From an uncultured Afifella sp. (lineage in GTDB: Bacteria > Pseudomonadota > Alphaproteobacteria > Rhizobiales > Afifellaceae), in contig CAMYKZ010000004.1 of the NCBI GenBank assembly GCA_947259045.1, positions 1 to 64,000 of the forward strand: a DNA stretch of 64,000 nt. The letters run 5' to 3'. A model generated the notes under the pieces. It was not told where the DNA came from. It ran no database searches and was given only the letters and a program-made list of their open reading frames with translations. This document shows, piece after piece, positions 6,977 to 42,606 of the stretch. Every line of letters starts with the position of its first letter. Position 1 is the stretch's first letter. The translations under genes and the position numbers were made by a program.

Positions 6977-8095
6977 ATGACCAACCTAGAATATCTGAAG
7001 CGGGGGGCCGCCGTTCTGGCGCTGGCCGCCAGCTTCGTGGCTGCACCGTTGCTGGCCCAGGCCAAGACGGTGATCCGTATCCAGTCGGTAATCCCGTCGA
7101 GCGCCGACGAAGTCACCATGCTGAACGATTTTGCCGACGACGTTCGGGAATTGACCGACGGCGAAGTATACTTCCAGGTTCTGCCTGCCGGCGCTGTTGT
7201 CGGCGTCGCCGAAACGCTTGATGCCGTCGACAAGGGCCTGATCGAGGCGGGCTTCGCCTGGACCCATTACTGGTCCGGCAAACATCCGGCCGCCATGCTG
7301 TTCGGTTCGCCGGTTGCCGGCGCCGGTGTCGGCATCGACAATATCGCCTTCGTCTCCTGGTTCATGTACGGCGGCGGCAAAGAGCTCTATGACGAGCTCT
7401 GGGACGAGATGGGCATGAATGTGAAGGGCTTCATGTTGCAGCCGGTTGGGCCGGAAGCGCTCGGCTGGTTCAAGGAGCCGATCGAGTCGATGGCGGATTT
7501 CCGAAAATACCGCTTCCGCACGCCTCCGGGCATACCCGGCCAGACCTACAAGGATATCGGCGTTGCATCGGTCTCCATGGGCGGCGGCGACATTCTGCCG
7601 GCGCTTGAAAAAGGCACCATCGACGCGGCCGAATGGTGCTGCCCGAAGCCGGATTCCGTATTCGGCTTCCAGAAGGTTCTGAAACATTATTATCTGCAGG
7701 GCCTGCACCAGGTGGTGGTCAATGCCGACATCTACATCAACAAGGATGTCTACAATTCATTGACACCACTGCAGCAGAAGGCGATCGAGGTTTCCGCCAA
7801 TGCATCGCTGATCAAGTCGCTGGCCTACCGGATCAATGAAAACGGCATCGCGCTGAAGGATCTGACGGAAAATCACGGCGTGATCCTGCACGACACACCG
7901 GCGGATTATTTCACCGAGTACATGAACGCCGCCAGGGCTTCGCTTGAAAAGAATGCGGCGGAAAACGCCTTCTTCAAGAAGGTCTGGGACAGCCAGAAGG
8001 CGTTTGCCGAAACGGCGGTTCCGTTCTGGGCCGGTGCGCAGACATCCAACGCGGCGCTCGGCCAGGCCTACGCCAAGCAGCTGAAGAAGCAATAA
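6977..8095 (+). CDS. TRAP transporter substrate-binding protein, DctP/TakP type
   Basis: A 372-residue periplasmic binding protein. A signal peptide is visible ([21 protein letters not shown], cleavage near residue 28). The DctP-fold body follows, with the family region [20 protein letters not shown] and [14 protein letters not shown], in which the conserved Arg that pairs with a carboxylate ligand sits near [11 protein letters not shown] 6977 is chosen over ATG 6962 because GGGAG lies just before it. It feeds the fused permease 25 bases downstream. Resemblance to the TakP group suggests a monocarboxylate or keto acid; that is inference. Confidence 0.9.
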
Positions 8096-8120
8096 CCTGA
8101 ACTGACATTGCAGGGGCGGC

Positions 8121-10433
8121 ATGAACGCCGCCCCTGCAGCAATTCAACGCGCAATGCGGGATGGGGCTGCGAGCCCGATCGGGGGAAACGTGACACTGGA
8201 AAATCTGGACCCTGCCGACGAACTGATTGCCGAGCGGCGCAGCGGCAGCCCCGGCGATCTGCCGCCGGATATGGCGAACTGGATGCGCGGCCCGATCACC
8301 ATCATCGATACGGTATCGCTCTGGTCCGGCCGGATTTTCTGCGTGCTGCTGATCCCGATGCTGTTTGCCATGGTCTACGAAGTGATTGCGCGCAAATTTT
8401 TTGTTGCGCCCACCCTTTGGGCCTATGACGTTTCCCGCATGGCCAATGGCGCGATGTTCATGTTCGGCGCCGCCTACGCCCTGATGCGCGGCGTTCATAT
8501 CCGTGCCGATTTTCTCTATCGCACCTGGAAGCCCGAAACCCAGGCCACCGTCGACGCACTGCTCTATCTGGCGTTCTATTTTCCGGCCATGCTGTTCTTT
8601 TTCTGGATCACGTTCGACTACACATACGATGCCTGGGTGAGGTGGGAACGGGCGGCGGATACGACCCTGATGGCGCCGCTGGCGCCAGCCCGTTCGGCCA
8701 TGCCGATCGGTGCTTTCCTGCTGATCCTGCAGGGCATTTCCGAACTTTTCAAATGTTTCCACGGCATGGGCGAACAGCGTGCGCGGACCTTTTTGCGCCT
8801 GGCGCCGGTCTATCTGATCCTGCTCGCCATGGTGTTCATGGGGGCGTTTTATCCCGATATCCTGCCGCTCGGAGACTGGTGGGCGTCAGCTGTTGCGCCG
8901 ACGGGGTTCGGCGATATCGCACCGGCGTGGATCGGCGTGATTATGATCGCAGTCATGCTGTTTGCGATTTTTATCGGTTTCCCGATCTCCTTCACGCTGA
9001 TCTTCCTGGCGTTCGTCTTCGGCGCCTGGGGTTTTGGCGGTCGGCTGGTGTTTTACCTGCAGGCATTCCAGTTCAACAATGTGATGCTGGAACAGACGCT
9101 CGCCGCCGTGCCGTTGTTCGTCTTTATGGGCATCCTGATGGAACAGGCCGGCCTGATGGAGCGGTTGTTCACATCGGTGCAGCTGATGCTGTCGCGCACC
9201 CGCGGTGCGCTCTATCTGGCAGTGCTGGTCGTTTCGACGATTTTTGCCGCCGCAACCGGTATTGTCGGTGCATCCGTTACCATCCTCGGCATCATGGCGG
9301 CAAAAACCATGAACCGGTCCGGTTACGACGTGCGCCTGGCCGCGGGAACGATCACCGCCGGCGGCACACTTGGCATCCTGATCCCGCCGTCGATCATGCT
9401 GGTCGTCATGGGCCCGGTGCTGGAAGTCCCGGTCACCGACCTGTTCTCGGCGGCGATCATCCCCGGCATCATGCTGGCCGTGCTTTACGCCGCCTATGCG
9501 CTGATCCGCTGCTGGCTGAACCCATCGCTCGGGCCGATCCTGTCGCCTGAGGACCAACCGGAGACATCGCCGTTCTATTGGCTTGAAGCAGTCCTCGTGA
9601 TGGCCTCGATCATCATCTTCTTCACAATCCTGGTGATGGCGCTGTTCGGCTCCCTGAATGGGCTGTTTCCGTTTGCCGGGCTGATCCTTTCGCTCGGCTG
9701 GATGGGCATCATGTTTGGTGGATCGCTCTGGGTTAAGAAGAACAAACCGGCCGGATTCTATTTTTCCGATCTCTGGTACGAATTTTTCATGGGGCTCGTG
9801 CCGCCGGCGACGCTTGTGTTTTTTGCGCTTGGCTCGATCCTGTTCGGCGTTGCGACACCCACCGAGGCGGCCGGCTGCGGCGCATTCGGCTCGATATTGC
9901 TGGCTCTGCTGTACCGCAAACTGACGCTTTCGGGCCTCTATGACGCGCTGATCAAGACGCTGGAAATTTCCGTCCTGATTCTTTTCCTGGTCGCTGCGTC
10001 GAATTTCTTCGGGGCGGTGTTCTCGCGGCTTGGAACGCCTATCGTGCTCACCGAGATGCTGCTGTCGTGGGATCTTTCCAAGACCATGGTGCTGATCATC
10101 ATCATGGCGCTGGTCTTCCTGCTTGGCTGGCCGCTTGAGTGGGTTCCGATCGTGCTGATCATCATTCCGATCCTGGTGCCCGTGCTTGTGGAATTCGACG
10201 TCAACCTGGTCTGGTTCGCCATTCTGGTGGCGGTCAACCTGCAAACCGCCTGGTTATCGCCACCGGTGGCGCTATCGGCCTATTTCCTCAAGGGCGTGGT
10301 GCCGGAATGGGATCTGAAGGATATCTATATCGGCATGATGCAGTTCATGGTAATCCAGCTGATCGGTCTGATATTGATCTTCAACTTCCCGCAGATCGCA
10401 CTCTGGCTGCCGGAGCATATTTACGGAAAATGA
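8121..10433 (+). CDS. TRAP transporter permease, fused DctQ-DctM
   Basis: A 770-residue inner-membrane protein joining the small (DctQ) and large (DctM) TRAP subunits. Residues 1 to 55 are a hydrophilic lead. Four membrane helices of the DctQ type end near residue 220 (FLLILQGISELFKCF). The DctM part then carries the family motifs AATGIVGASVTILGIMAAKTM and GTLGILIPPSIMLVVMGPV, with a second, inverted half containing GVATPTEAAGCGAFGS. There is no frame break between the halves, so it is a genuine fusion. The adjacent DctP supplies substrate and uptake is Na+-coupled. Confidence 0.93.
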   Translation: MNAAPAAIQRAMRDGAASPIGGNVTLENLDPADELIAERRSGSPGDLPPDMANWMRGPITIIDTVSLWSGRIFCVLLIPMLFAMVYEVIARKFFVAPTLWAYDVSRMANGAMFMFGAAYALMRGVHIRADFLYRTWKPETQATVDALLYLAFYFPAMLFFFWITFDYTYDAWVRWERAADTTLMAPLAPARSAMPIGAFLLILQGISELFKCFHGMGEQRARTFLRLAPVYLILLAMVFMGAFYPDILPLGDWWASAVAPTGFGDIAPAWIGVIMIAVMLFAIFIGFPISFTLIFLAFVFGAWGFGGRLVFYLQAFQFNNVMLEQTLAAVPLFVFMGILMEQAGLMERLFTSVQLMLSRTRGALYLAVLVVSTIFAAATGIVGASVTILGIMAAKTMNRSGYDVRLAAGTITAGGTLGILIPPSIMLVVMGPVLEVPVTDLFSAAIIPGIMLAVLYAAYALIRCWLNPSLGPILSPEDQPETSPFYWLEAVLVMASIIIFFTILVMALFGSLNGLFPFAGLILSLGWMGIMFGGSLWVKKNKPAGFYFSDLWYEFFMGLVPPATLVFFALGSILFGVATPTEAAGCGAFGSILLALLYRKLTLSGLYDALIKTLEISVLILFLVAASNFFGAVFSRLGTPIVLTEMLLSWDLSKTMVLIIIMALVFLLGWPLEWVPIVLIIIPILVPVLVEFDVNLVWFAILVAVNLQTAWLSPPVALSAYFLKGVVPEWDLKDIYIGMMQFMVIQLIGLILIFNFPQIALWLPEHIYGK

Positions 10434-35410: not shown

Positions 35411-35438
35411 TATAATGTTCAACAATGAACAATATTGT
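35411..35438. promoter_or_regulatory. MarR operator/promoter candidate in the hydrolase-MarR intergenic region
   Basis: ACAATATTGT (35429-35438) is a perfect 10-base palindrome, and GTTCA/TGAAC arms lie just to its left (35417-35429). TATAAT at 35411-35416 matches a consensus -10 on the + strand. The sites overlap the only space available for both divergent promoters, so one repressor dimer could shut both genes. Confidence 0.5.
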
Positions 35439-35444
35439 ACAAAG

Positions 35445-35969
35445 ATGAACAAAACACAAGTCAAAAAGACATCCGGCCGGTCACAACCGGCTGACGAACT
35501 GTCCCCGGACGAACTGCCCCCGAACGAACTTCCGTGGGACAATCCGCGCTTCCGCAACTGGATCGCCGTCGGGCGCGCCTGCCATCTGATGCAGGCGACC
35601 TTGTCGCGCATGCTGCAGCCGCTCGATCTGAAGGTGCCGCATCTCGATATTCTGGCCAATCTCTACCGCTTCGAAGGCCTGACCCAGCAGGAGCTTGCCC
35701 GCAAACTGCTGGTTGGCCGCTCCAACATGTCGATGCTGTTGCCGCAGATGGAAAAGCGCGGCCTGATCGAACGCCGCAGCGACGCCCGCGACAAAAGGGT
35801 TCTGCGGCTTTACCTGACGGAGCCCGGCGCCACCCTGACCCGCCAGGCGATGCAGATCCAGATGCAACTGGTCGACCGGTCGATGCAGATTTCAGGCGCG
35901 GACGAATGCGACATGGTCGGTGAGGTGATGGGCCGGATTATCGCCGAACTGAAGGACGATCTCAGCTAG
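35445..35969 (+). CDS. MarR family transcriptional regulator
   Basis: A 174-residue winged-helix regulator. The MarR fold is visible from LKVPHLDILANLYRFEGLTQ through LARKLLVGRSNMSMLLPQME and the wing RRSDARDKRVLRLYLTEPG. The N-terminal 40 residues are hydrophilic with repeated ELS/ELP-type residues. ATG 35445 is chosen because ATG 35415 would put the operator palindrome inside the coding region. It likely represses itself and the divergent hydrolase; the ligand is unknown. Confidence 0.87.
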   Translation: MNKTQVKKTSGRSQPADELSPDELPPNELPWDNPRFRNWIAVGRACHLMQATLSRMLQPLDLKVPHLDILANLYRFEGLTQQELARKLLVGRSNMSMLLPQMEKRGLIERRSDARDKRVLRLYLTEPGATLTRQAMQIQMQLVDRSMQISGADECDMVGEVMGRIIAELKDDLS

Positions 35970-36017: not shown

Positions 36018-37178
36018 TTATTGCAATGCCACAAGGATTGGGATCATCCCGCGGCCTTTTGCCAGAGGGGCCAACGCCTTGCCGATAATTGCACCAAACG
36101 CCCGCTGCGGGTCTGCGGCCTTCATCGCATGACCGGGTATGGCGGCGGTGGTGAGCAGGTCTCCGACGCCGACCGCACCGCAATCAGCATCAACCTTACA
36201 GGAAACCTTGCCGATTAACGCTATCGGCTTGCAATCAGCATCTGCTGGCTGTTTGCCGAGCACAATGCCAGGGCCGAAACTGCCCCCGCCGGACACGACG
36301 CCGGCGACGCGGCGGTCGTATGCCGTCACGCTGACGCGCAACGCTCCGGTATCGTCGATCACCAGCACCGAGCCGGGATCGATCATCTCCGCGTCGATGA
36401 CGGTGAAATCTTCCGCACAATCAGCACCCAGCGTAATGACCTGGCCGCTGGCGCCGTCGAGATGGATCCGCAGATCGCCGTCTGCATCAAAGACGCGGAC
36501 ATCGCCTTCATTTCCCTCCGTACCAACATCGACGACCGCCTTGTCACCACTGAGATGGACAACTTGGCGGCCCTCGCCGTCGCGCACAATGATATCGCCT
36601 TCGTTGCCTTCCGTGCCGGCGAAAATCGCCGCCCGATTAGCATCGAGACGCAGTGCGTCCCGGCCGTCACCATCTCTCACGAACAGGTCGCCTTCAAAGC
36701 CTTCGCCGCCAATGCGAAGAGCGCCAGTCGCGCCTTCGAACGTCATTGCGTCACGCAGCGTGCCATCCACATTCCGGCGTATAGTCACGTCACCCTCGGC
36801 ATCGAGGATCAGAGTGTCGTCGCCGTCACCGTTGCGGAGATTGATCTTTCCAGGAGTGATCTCACCTCCGATCGACAACGATCCCTGCGGTGGCAGAAAC
36901 TCAAAAACCGGGTAATAGTCTGCGCCCAATTGCCTGCTGATAAAGATCTGACCGTTGCCGGCAAGCGTCATAATCGAAACAGCGGCTGCATCGCGTGATA
37001 TGATGCTGCCTTCGTTGCTAAGCATGATACGCGCCACGCCGGCTGCGTCACTGACATGTAAATTTCCGTCCTGACCGCCACCGCCAACAGTCAGGTGACC
37101 GCGATCGCCATCCGCAATCACCGTTGTGTTGCCACTGCCATCCTGAATATCAACGGTTCCCTCAAAAATTTCACTCAT
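36018..37178 (-). CDS. Repeat-rich predicted beta-solenoid protein with phage-tail-like C-terminal domain
   Basis: A 386-residue protein with no signal peptide. From about residue 120 to 260 it has imperfect repeats of about 30 residues of the type GD(I/L/V)xVRDGxGRxxxxLxxxxAxxxxGTEGNE, Gly- and Asp-rich, as in a right-handed beta-solenoid. The N-terminal 90 residues hold looser copies (GNLHVSDAAGVARIML). The C-terminal 120 residues, from GSVLVIDDTGALRVSVTAYD to KALAPLAKGRGMIPILVALQ, resemble a domain I associate with phage-tail-like and other large extracellular proteins. The start is ATG 37178 behind GGAGG; longer in-frame starts lack this. Function unknown; cell surface or spore/stress role is speculation. 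Confidence 0.75.
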   Translation of the reverse strand: MSEIFEGTVDIQDGSGNTTVIADGDRGHLTVGGGGQDGNLHVSDAAGVARIMLSNEGSIISRDAAAVSIMTLAGNGQIFISRQLGADYYPVFEFLPPQGSLSIGGEITPGKINLRNGDGDDTLILDAEGDVTIRRNVDGTLRDAMTFEGATGALRIGGEGFEGDLFVRDGDGRDALRLDANRAAIFAGTEGNEGDIIVRDGEGRQVVHLSGDKAVVDVGTEGNEGDVRVFDADGDLRIHLDGASGQVITLGADCAEDFTVIDAEMIDPGSVLVIDDTGALRVSVTAYDRRVAGVVSGGGSFGPGIVLGKQPADADCKPIALIGKVSCKVDADCGAVGVGDLLTTAAIPGHAMKAADPQRAFGAIIGKALAPLAKGRGMIPILVALQ

Positions 37179-37418
37179 CACATCCTCCGTGGACTGGTTG
37201 GCTCCGGCTTTGTCGGCGGATGGCGCGGAAGGGCAGGAATCGAGTGTCGCCTGCACAAAATATGCGCCAGGATTGAGGCCGCGAACAACCGGAACGCGAA
37301 TATCTCATTGAACTCGCCAATGCGTCAAGATGACGTCAGGTTCTCAGGCGGTGCAGCTTACGGAGTGCCAAAAGCCGCGCAAATCGCAGGTGACGCGTTT
37401 CGATTTGGGCGGGTTGCG

Positions 37419-37667
37419 TCAGTCCCGCTCAGGCCACGGGATCACCGCCAGGCCAATGATCGCTCCGGTTAACGCCCAGAAGCCGGACGGGCCGCCAAAC
37501 ACGATTCGTTTGCCAAAGACGACAGCCAGAAAAGCCGATCCCGACAAAACCAGCGGGAGACAGCTGAGAATTATGAATTTGCGGTCAAAGCCGGCCTTGC
37601 GAAACAGAAACGGAAGACAGATCGAGCTGACGACAATTGGCAGCAAGATCATGATCAGATCAGCCAC
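37419..37667 (-). CDS. Small three-helix membrane protein
   Basis: An 82-residue protein starting at GTG 37667 with AGAGGA upstream. Three hydrophobic stretches (LIMILLPIVVSSICLPFLF, IILSCLPLVLSGSAFLAVVF, WALTGAIIGLAVIP) are separated by short basic loops. No family is recognised. It lies between the repeat-rich protein and an SDR gene, on the same strand as both, and may be co-transcribed. Confidence 0.6.
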   Translation of the reverse strand: MADLIMILLPIVVSSICLPFLFRKAGFDRKFIILSCLPLVLSGSAFLAVVFGKRIVFGGPSGFWALTGAIIGLAVIPWPERD

Positions 37668-41205: not shown

Positions 41206-42606
41206 ATGGCCGCCGATCTTTTGCACAATCAGAGCCTGGAAGAGATGGATCTGCGCACCATGCTGCATCCGGCAACGTCGATCGCCGATCATCTGGCGAA
41301 CGGCCCGCGCATCATGGCGCAAGCCAGCGGTGTACATATCACTGATACAAAGGGCCGGCGCTATCTCGACGGTGCCGCCGGTCTGTGGTGCGTCAATGTC
41401 GGTTATGGCCGTCAGGAAATCGCCGAGGCGATTGCCGCCCAGGCGGCGGCGCTGCCGTTTTTCCATTCCTTCACGTCGATGGCCAACGAACCGTCGATCC
41501 GGCTGGCCGACCGGGTGCTGCGCTGGGCTCCTGACGGCATGAGCAAGGTGCTGTTCGGCAGCGGCGGGTCGGATGCCAACGATACCAATGTCAAGCTGGT
41601 CTGGTATTACAACAATCTGCGCGGCAAGCATGAGAAAAAGAAGATCATCTCGCGCGAACGCGCCTATCACGGCGTCACGATTGCGTCCGGCAGCCTGACA
41701 GGCCTGGCCGTATTCCACGAAAAATTCGATCTGCCGCTGCCGATGGTGCGGCACACAAAGTCCGTCGATCAGTACCGCGATAAACCGGCCGGTATGAGCG
41801 AGGCGGACTATTCCGCTCATCTTGCCGACGAACTGGAAAAGCTGATCCTGGCCGAAGGCCCGGAGACGGTCGGCGCCTTCATCGCCGAACCGGTGATGGG
41901 CACCGGCGGCGTGCTGGTTCCGCCGGCGGGTTATTTCCCGGCCATCCAGGCGGTGCTCGACAAATATGACGTGCTGATGATCGCCGACGAGGTGATCTGC
42001 GGGTTCGGCCGGCTCGGCGCTGCCTTCGGCTGCCACAAATACGGTATCCGCCCGGATATCATGACCATGGCCAAGGGCCTGTCCAGCGGTTATCTGCCGA
42101 TCTCGGCCAGCGTGATTTCAGAGCGCATCTGGGCTGTGTTGGAAGACACCGCGCCGGAGATGGCGGCATTCGGTCACGGTTTCACCTATTCCGCCCATCC
42201 GACCTGCGCCGCAGCCGCCCTTGCCAACCTGGATATCATCGAGCGCGAGGATCTGGTCGGCAATGCCGCGCGCGCCGGCGATATGCTGAAAGCCCGGCTC
42301 AATGCCGATCTCGGCGATCATCCGCTCGTCGGCGACATTCGCGGCGACGGCCTGATGATCGGCGTCGAACTGGTCGCCGACAGAAAGAGCCGGGCGATGA
42401 TCGACCTGGCCCACAAGGCGGCGATCCGGGTGATGAAGCGCGGTTACGAGGAGAATATTCTGGTGCGCGCCCTGCCGCACGGCAATACCATCGCCATGTC
42501 GCCGCCGCTGACCCTGTCGGATGAGAATATCGACGAACTGGTGCCGGCGCTGAAGCGGGCAATCGACCATGTGCATGGCGAACTGCGGGCTGAAAACATC
42601 GTCTGA
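41206..42606 (+). CDS. Class III (omega) aminotransferase
   Basis: A 466-residue PLP enzyme of the ornithine/4-aminobutyrate/beta-alanine:pyruvate type. Features are YLDGAAGLWCVNVGYGRQEI at the N-terminus, FIAEPVMGTGGVLVPPAGYF, the PLP-phosphate region IADEVICGFGRLG and the Schiff-base Lys in TMAKGLSSGYLPIS. FTYSAHPTCAAAALANL is typical of the omega-aminotransferases that use pyruvate. It probably transfers amino groups from an omega-amino acid, taurine or a polyamine. The neighbours do not fix the substrate. Confidence 0.9.
   Translation: MAADLLHNQSLEEMDLRTMLHPATSIADHLANGPRIMAQASGVHITDTKGRRYLDGAAGLWCVNVGYGRQEIAEAIAAQAAALPFFHSFTSMANEPSIRLADRVLRWAPDGMSKVLFGSGGSDANDTNVKLVWYYNNLRGKHEKKKIISRERAYHGVTIASGSLTGLAVFHEKFDLPLPMVRHTKSVDQYRDKPAGMSEADYSAHLADELEKLILAEGPETVGAFIAEPVMGTGGVLVPPAGYFPAIQAVLDKYDVLMIADEVICGFGRLGAAFGCHKYGIRPDIMTMAKGLSSGYLPISASVISERIWAVLEDTAPEMAAFGHGFTYSAHPTCAAAALANLDIIEREDLVGNAARAGDMLKARLNADLGDHPLVGDIRGDGLMIGVELVADRKSRAMIDLAHKAAIRVMKRGYEENILVRALPHGNTIAMSPPLTLSDENIDELVPALKRAIDHVHGELRAENIV

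Follow-up and report, generated by a model that had tools for sequence, protein, structure and literature searches.

The gene at 36018–37178 on the minus strand of the window (64,000 nucleotides of contig CAMYKZ010000004.1, positions 1 to 64,000, from an uncultured Afifella sp.) encodes a protein of 386 residues that comprises a repeat shaft and a C-terminal cap domain and has relatives in many other genomes. On balance, we favor the reading that it is an orphan of a widespread and apparently unnamed family of carriers, derived from phage spikes, whose relatives dock partner proteins that bear a common tag. The interest lies in the family with its tag-sharing partners; the window gene alone is an orphan. 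No description of the carrier family or of the tag was found in the literature searched, from which most subscription journals were missing.

The carrier starts at the ATG at 37178, with a GGAGG, read directly on the minus strand at 37184–37188 and a likely ribosome-binding site, 5 bases ahead of it. A longer ORF starting with GTG is less likely because the GGAGG precedes the ATG and because the equivalent start is seen in relatives (MPEVFTGKV, MAEQLIGKV, MAENFSGKV). By reading, the protein has no Sec-type N terminus. The gene lies among ordinary chromosomal genes. A Pfam scan of eight neighbors identified GrpE, Gly_transporter, an alpha/beta hydrolase, MarR, an ORF of 82 residues without a family, SDR, an aldo/keto reductase, and MFS, and PHROGs matches for the six neighbors scanned were only to an esterase, a regulator, a reductase, and entries of unknown function, with no phage genes. 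The non-phage setting described in the first-pass annotation is therefore confirmed for the neighbors scanned, and it recurs in the relatives that were read. The downstream neighbor is a convergent MarR gene (35415–35969, plus strand), which occupies the position taken by the partner gene in relatives, and no partner gene adjoins the window carrier. The 82-residue ORF (37419–37667), upstream of the carrier on the same strand, is hydrophobic and has no match in Pfam or PHROGs. Elsewhere in the window, the AT skew of positions 8001–10000 is -0.24, far off the rest, and ARAGORN places a tRNA-Glu at 41841–41938 that, with 98 bases, is longer than usual.

Searches with the whole protein against Pfam, PHROGs, NCBIfam, and PDB sequences returned nothing usable, and the two parts of the protein are described separately. 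The N-terminal repeat region (residues 1–250; 36429–37178, minus strand) was delimited by autocorrelation and from a structural model. It has a period of 31 residues with a z of 7.6 (the highest z in 500 shuffles was 4.4), rising to 10.4 for residues 151–250. Three clean 31-residue repeats, apparent in both the autocorrelation and the model, span residues 153–245 (36444–36722, minus strand), each with the motif G[GT]EGxEGD and with three predicted strands. GTEGNEGD begins at residues 188 and 219, GGEGFEGD at 157, and GGGGQDGN at 32, and VRDGDGR and VRDGEGR come after two of these G-rich motifs. The repeats of about 30 residues with GTEGNEGD and VRDGxGR that had been noted earlier are therefore real. 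Only three of them are clean, and the central stretch of the N-terminal region is irregular. The description of the region as β-solenoid-like holds as far as repetitive β structure is concerned, but the solenoid itself is modeled at moderate confidence only (pLDDT about 73–83 for residues 160–250 and below 50 over much of 36–152). The periodicity is observed; that the repeats form a β shaft is predicted at that moderate confidence. The top Foldseek matches of the full-length model (Rhs and Tc shells; TM-score about 0.1) are so weak as to be uninformative.

The conserved C-terminal domain (residues 240–386; 36021–36461, minus strand) was delimited by conservation, a model, and a profile match. 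Its 147 residues are 47–56% identical to those of nine plasmid relatives and 48–66% identical to 80 further rows, in agreement with the conservation previously proposed. The model built with 81 related rows has a pLDDT of 91.6 and a pTM of 0.86. The closest structure is the C-terminal fragment of phi29 gp12 (3gqh; Z 14.1, 2.1 Å over 111 residues, 22% identity), followed by uncleaved gp12 (3suc; Z 14.0, 2.4 Å over 123 residues) and then by phage capsid proteins from Z 12.5 down. The modeled domain shows the fold of the gp12 intramolecular chaperone, and the suggestion of a phage-tail-type C terminus is upheld by this fold match, the Pfam Peptidase_G2 match being weak or absent in most rows. PF11962 (Peptidase_G2) is matched weakly by 21 of the 81 rows (best E 9.8e-5); the window domain matches no Pfam family at E 1, and the PF11962 model does not recognize it. 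Because of this we describe the cap as a fold relative of the Peptidase_G2 chaperone and do not call it a member. A profile search of PDB sequences gave only a chance ribosomal match, and PHROGs searched with the 81 C-terminal rows gave scattered weak matches only.

Residue 14 of the cap model pairs with residue 692 of gp12, in register with the cleavage boundary, and Ala252-Asp253 (36420–36425, minus strand) aligns with the gp12 cleavage site Ser691-Asp692. The mature gp12 model is reported to stop at residue 691 (PMC6542822). Across this boundary gp12 reads S691-D692-F-A-E-Y-F and the window protein A-D-C-A-E-D-F, and a profile comparison with seven phage rows aligned the same residues (E 4e-5, probability 70%). 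The motif D-x-A-E-x-F is nearly invariant, with Asp14 in 80 of 81 rows and Ala16, Glu17, and Phe19 in all 81. This Asp is preceded by Ala in the window protein and in 68 of the 81 rows, and by Ser in four; in the seven phage rows the residue before the cleaved bond varies too (S, Q, S, G, A, A, T).

An alignment-based genome scan returned at least 464 relatives from 584 candidate stretches; a single-sequence scan, which required exact peptides, found none. Locus statistics are based on the best 80 of these relatives together with one viral contig and nine plasmid loci. For the taxon count, L061 is left out, which leaves 79 genome loci from the best 80 (the viral contig and the window stand besides); these loci are distributed over 17 phyla, 75 being bacterial and four archaeal. 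Among the best 80, the closest to the window domain is from a Chloroflexi MAG (66% identity). Matches were present in 11 plasmid records from eight genera or groups. A match in one further genome (G048) covered the repeats only and was dropped. The carrier is uncommon within the window's lineage, the window's genome being the only one with it among 101 relatives and among 398 genomes of the phylum. In a tree of the domain the phyla are mixed, with 46 label changes against a least possible 16; the tree has few columns and 54 of its 78 inner branches are open, so that it shows mixing only and not the direction of transfer. The patchy spread suggests horizontal transfer, for which the tree is too weak to serve as proof.

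The cap is the final element of nearly all ORFs read among the relatives, and it follows shafts of several types. By a crude rule applied to 90 carriers, 21 have a GGxGxDGD solenoid, the type found in the window carrier, 43 have GVxGxS, seven have VGIGT, and 19 have others. Two local arrangements were also observed. The Bipolaricaulota genome of locus L059 (G133) contains 12 cap-domain matches on contigs C35, C38, C41, C63, C69, and C82, of which 11 are divergent and lie on ORFs of 474–1565 residues, a local family expansion. In Methylomonas koyamae (L024:5359-7559), two tandem carrier genes precede a tagged partner of the phosphoesterase family.

That the carrier is a decayed prophage tail-spike or fiber gene left in the chromosome is, in our estimate, very improbable indeed. 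The shared fold of the phage spike chaperone is consistent with such an origin, as are 12 more distant relatives on viral contigs (32–37% identity), which have the domain at the end of a long protein or close to it, most of these proteins being very large. The one close match on a viral contig (L093, 61% identity) is from a contig of 4.9 kb whose viral nature is putative only. However, the window ORF is intact, its neighbors are not phage genes, a search of 50,697 phage records gave no match, even at E 10 for the domain, and a partner gene is kept by relatives across 17 phyla. The first-pass annotation had raised the prospect that relatives would be found in phage remnants; instead, they lie beside partner genes of many kinds.

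The genes next to the relatives' carriers provide the evidence for a carrier with partners. The downstream neighbor is on the same strand at 77 of 88 loci, and within 150 bases at 74, as compared with 47 and 19 of 84 loci for the upstream neighbor (Fisher, 4e-6 for same strand and 2e-16 for within 150 bases). When 10 of the 11 exceptions were re-read, seven had a same-strand ORF missed by the longest-ORF rule, bringing the count to 84 of 88. At the eleventh locus (L007), metallopeptidase and HEAT genes instead lie upstream, and L075 has a relative of one partner family upstream on the opposite strand. Genes were called mechanically, and the partner call is doubtful at six loci or more (L049, L060, L064, L071, L089, and L093). 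In the corrected set of 84 partners, the seven re-read genes were added and the partner of L011 was swapped for the annotated gene. These 84 proteins fall into 37 sequence clusters by BLASTP. Those that could be named include M12- and M6-like metallopeptidases, a phosphoesterase, a calcineurin-like phosphoesterase, an acyltransferase-like protein, and a kelch/glyoxal-oxidase-like (propeller-like) protein; in a Pfam tally of 51 selected from the 84, most match nothing. A metallopeptidase is the partner of 14 of 21 solenoid carriers as compared with 4 of 63 others, and a HEAT-repeat-type protein follows the metallopeptidase at 11 loci.

At their start or end, many partners carry a tag in which S-[LVI]-R segments, such as ISVRALL and TSLRQLA, recur about three times; typically there are three segments, separated by about 13–16 and then 10–18 residues. 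The triple is present in 20 of 77 immediate partners, where 0.64 would be expected from shuffling, and in none of 124 opposite-strand downstream genes. A hidden Markov model (HMM) built from 23 segments and then iterated matched 30 of the 77 immediate partners. Among other same-strand genes it matched 8 of 169 that lie later and 2 of 190 that lie upstream, and it matched none of the 267 genes on the opposite strand. In the corrected set it matched 36 of 84 partners, belonging to 11 BLASTP clusters, and detected no tag in the other 48. By a looser count, which accepts two or more short motifs within a terminus of 75 residues, 45 of 84 partners are positive (mean 5.7 and maximum 13 in 200 shuffles), as are 20 of 256 upstream genes. 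In 49 whole carrier genomes, the tag profile at E 0.001 gave 18 matches in 15 genomes, all on the carrier's contig and within about 6 kb of the carrier. The profile had been trained on carrier neighbors, and 14 of the 18 are training stretches; four are independent (one each in G114 and G131 and two in G142). No other evidence ties tag and carrier to each other as strongly as the location of these matches, the independent part of which is small. The window's genome contains no convincing tag protein (best E 0.74), and a tag shared by unrelated partners was seen in relatives only. Because the window copy has neither an adjoining partner nor a tag protein in its genome, the claim of a carrier with a partner rests on the relatives.

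The same data bear on whether carrier and partner are simply co-expressed without contact, as pairs of genes within a stress, surface, or conflict island, with the tag used for folding, for a receptor of its own, or for some other purpose. The 48 partners without a detectable tag and the solitary window copy would fit such an arrangement, which we nevertheless regard as unlikely; a tag common to 11 unrelated partner clusters and absent from all 267 opposite-strand neighbors is not easily accounted for unless the partners share something to which they bind.

The N termini of both proteins bear on the route that they take. The first-pass annotation had suggested a secreted or surface protein, which in the usual sense is unsupported, the window protein having by reading no Sec-type N terminus. 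Among the 79 relatives with a complete 5′ end, a crude rule found a hydrophobic N terminus in one (L052, probably with a mis-set start), and the same rule found one among 77 partners. These counts argue against a surface adhesin or cell-wall structural protein using an ordinary export route, a role that a repetitive β shaft could otherwise suit. In Runella (L010, whose carrier is outside the 79), carrier and partner both have Sec-like N termini by reading, and the partner is annotated with a T9SS sorting domain. Overall, we give the adhesin explanation very little credence.

We also consider it improbable that the carriers belong, as fibers or cargo, to extracellular contractile injection systems (eCIS) whose genes lie elsewhere in the genome. 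The markers PF13699 and PF14065 are present in 27 and 22, respectively, of the 49 carrier genomes (G101–G149); in genomes from the window's phylum the corresponding counts are 16 of 200 and 18 of 398, the sets being unmatched for phylum, size, and habitat. However, either marker is absent from about half of the carrier genomes, only two of the eight Pseudomonadota carrier genomes (assigned by their titles) have PF14065, no marker adjoins a carrier in any of the 49, and the window's genome has neither PF13699 nor PF14065. The co-occurrence is a lead only.

In the favored reading, of a carrier with docked, tagged partners, the C-terminal cap probably puts three chains in register and trimerizes the shaft, as the gp12 chaperone does, and the tag would attach the partner to the carrier by docking; a single cap could in this way be combined with many shafts and many cargoes. 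Because a Sec-like N terminus is missing from almost all of the carriers and partners read, assembly is probably cytosolic, and any release would be by lysis or by some exporter. The window copy may have lost its partner or may never have had one; since solenoid carriers go with metallopeptidases, a metallopeptidase is the most likely candidate for the absent protein. A more specific form, which we put forward tentatively and hold to be possible rather than probable, is a phylum-crossing carrier in which a trimeric, spike-derived rod is loaded with exchangeable enzymes, at the gp12-type cap or the adjoining shaft, through a triple SLR docking tag whose three segments perhaps match the three chains. 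If docking occurs, a phage-spike chaperone fold would have become a modular enzyme carrier in microbes of at least 17 phyla, and the tag would serve as a sequence handle for cargo proteins left unnamed by family models and might be a portable loading tag. The role of an intramolecular chaperone that is kept, not shed, would then become testable.

Several known systems resemble the carriers in part. The Peptidase_S74/MYRF autocleavage proteins are described as having a C-terminal intramolecular chaperone of a trimeric β shaft and as a Ser-Lys dyad family, unlike the carrier cap (PMC8326128); the carrier matches them neither in sequence nor in the structure rows shown. The payload loading of eCIS and the Photorhabdus virulence cassette has a phage-tail parentage, as the carriers do. 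The systems are reported to be spread patchily over bacteria and archaea (PMC8213781), and short terminal signals are reported on diverse payloads (PMC11495950), which recalls the spread of the carriers and the tag, respectively. In contrast to eCIS, no marker adjoins the carriers, either terminus of a partner may bear the tag, and injection is unsupported. Phage decoration and cement proteins (Sf11, XM1, Pam3, SHP, and lambda gpD) have the same general β fold (Z 12.5 to about 5), and their Pfam models are weakly touched by a few carrier rows, but they score lower than gp12, are about 10–17% identical to the cap, and are free-standing on capsids. The phi29 gp12 pre-neck appendage chaperone (PF11962) shares the fold of the cap (Z 14.1), its position at the extreme C terminus after a β shaft, and D-x-A-E-x-F in register with the cleavage boundary. 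The carrier cap differs in having no counterpart of the long insert of the phage domain (147 as compared with about 163 residues), in its spacing, and in the Ala that replaces Ser ahead of the Asp in 68 of 81 rows, and most carrier rows fall below or outside the Pfam model. Unlike gp12, the carriers are not in phages, and a partner gene adjoins them.
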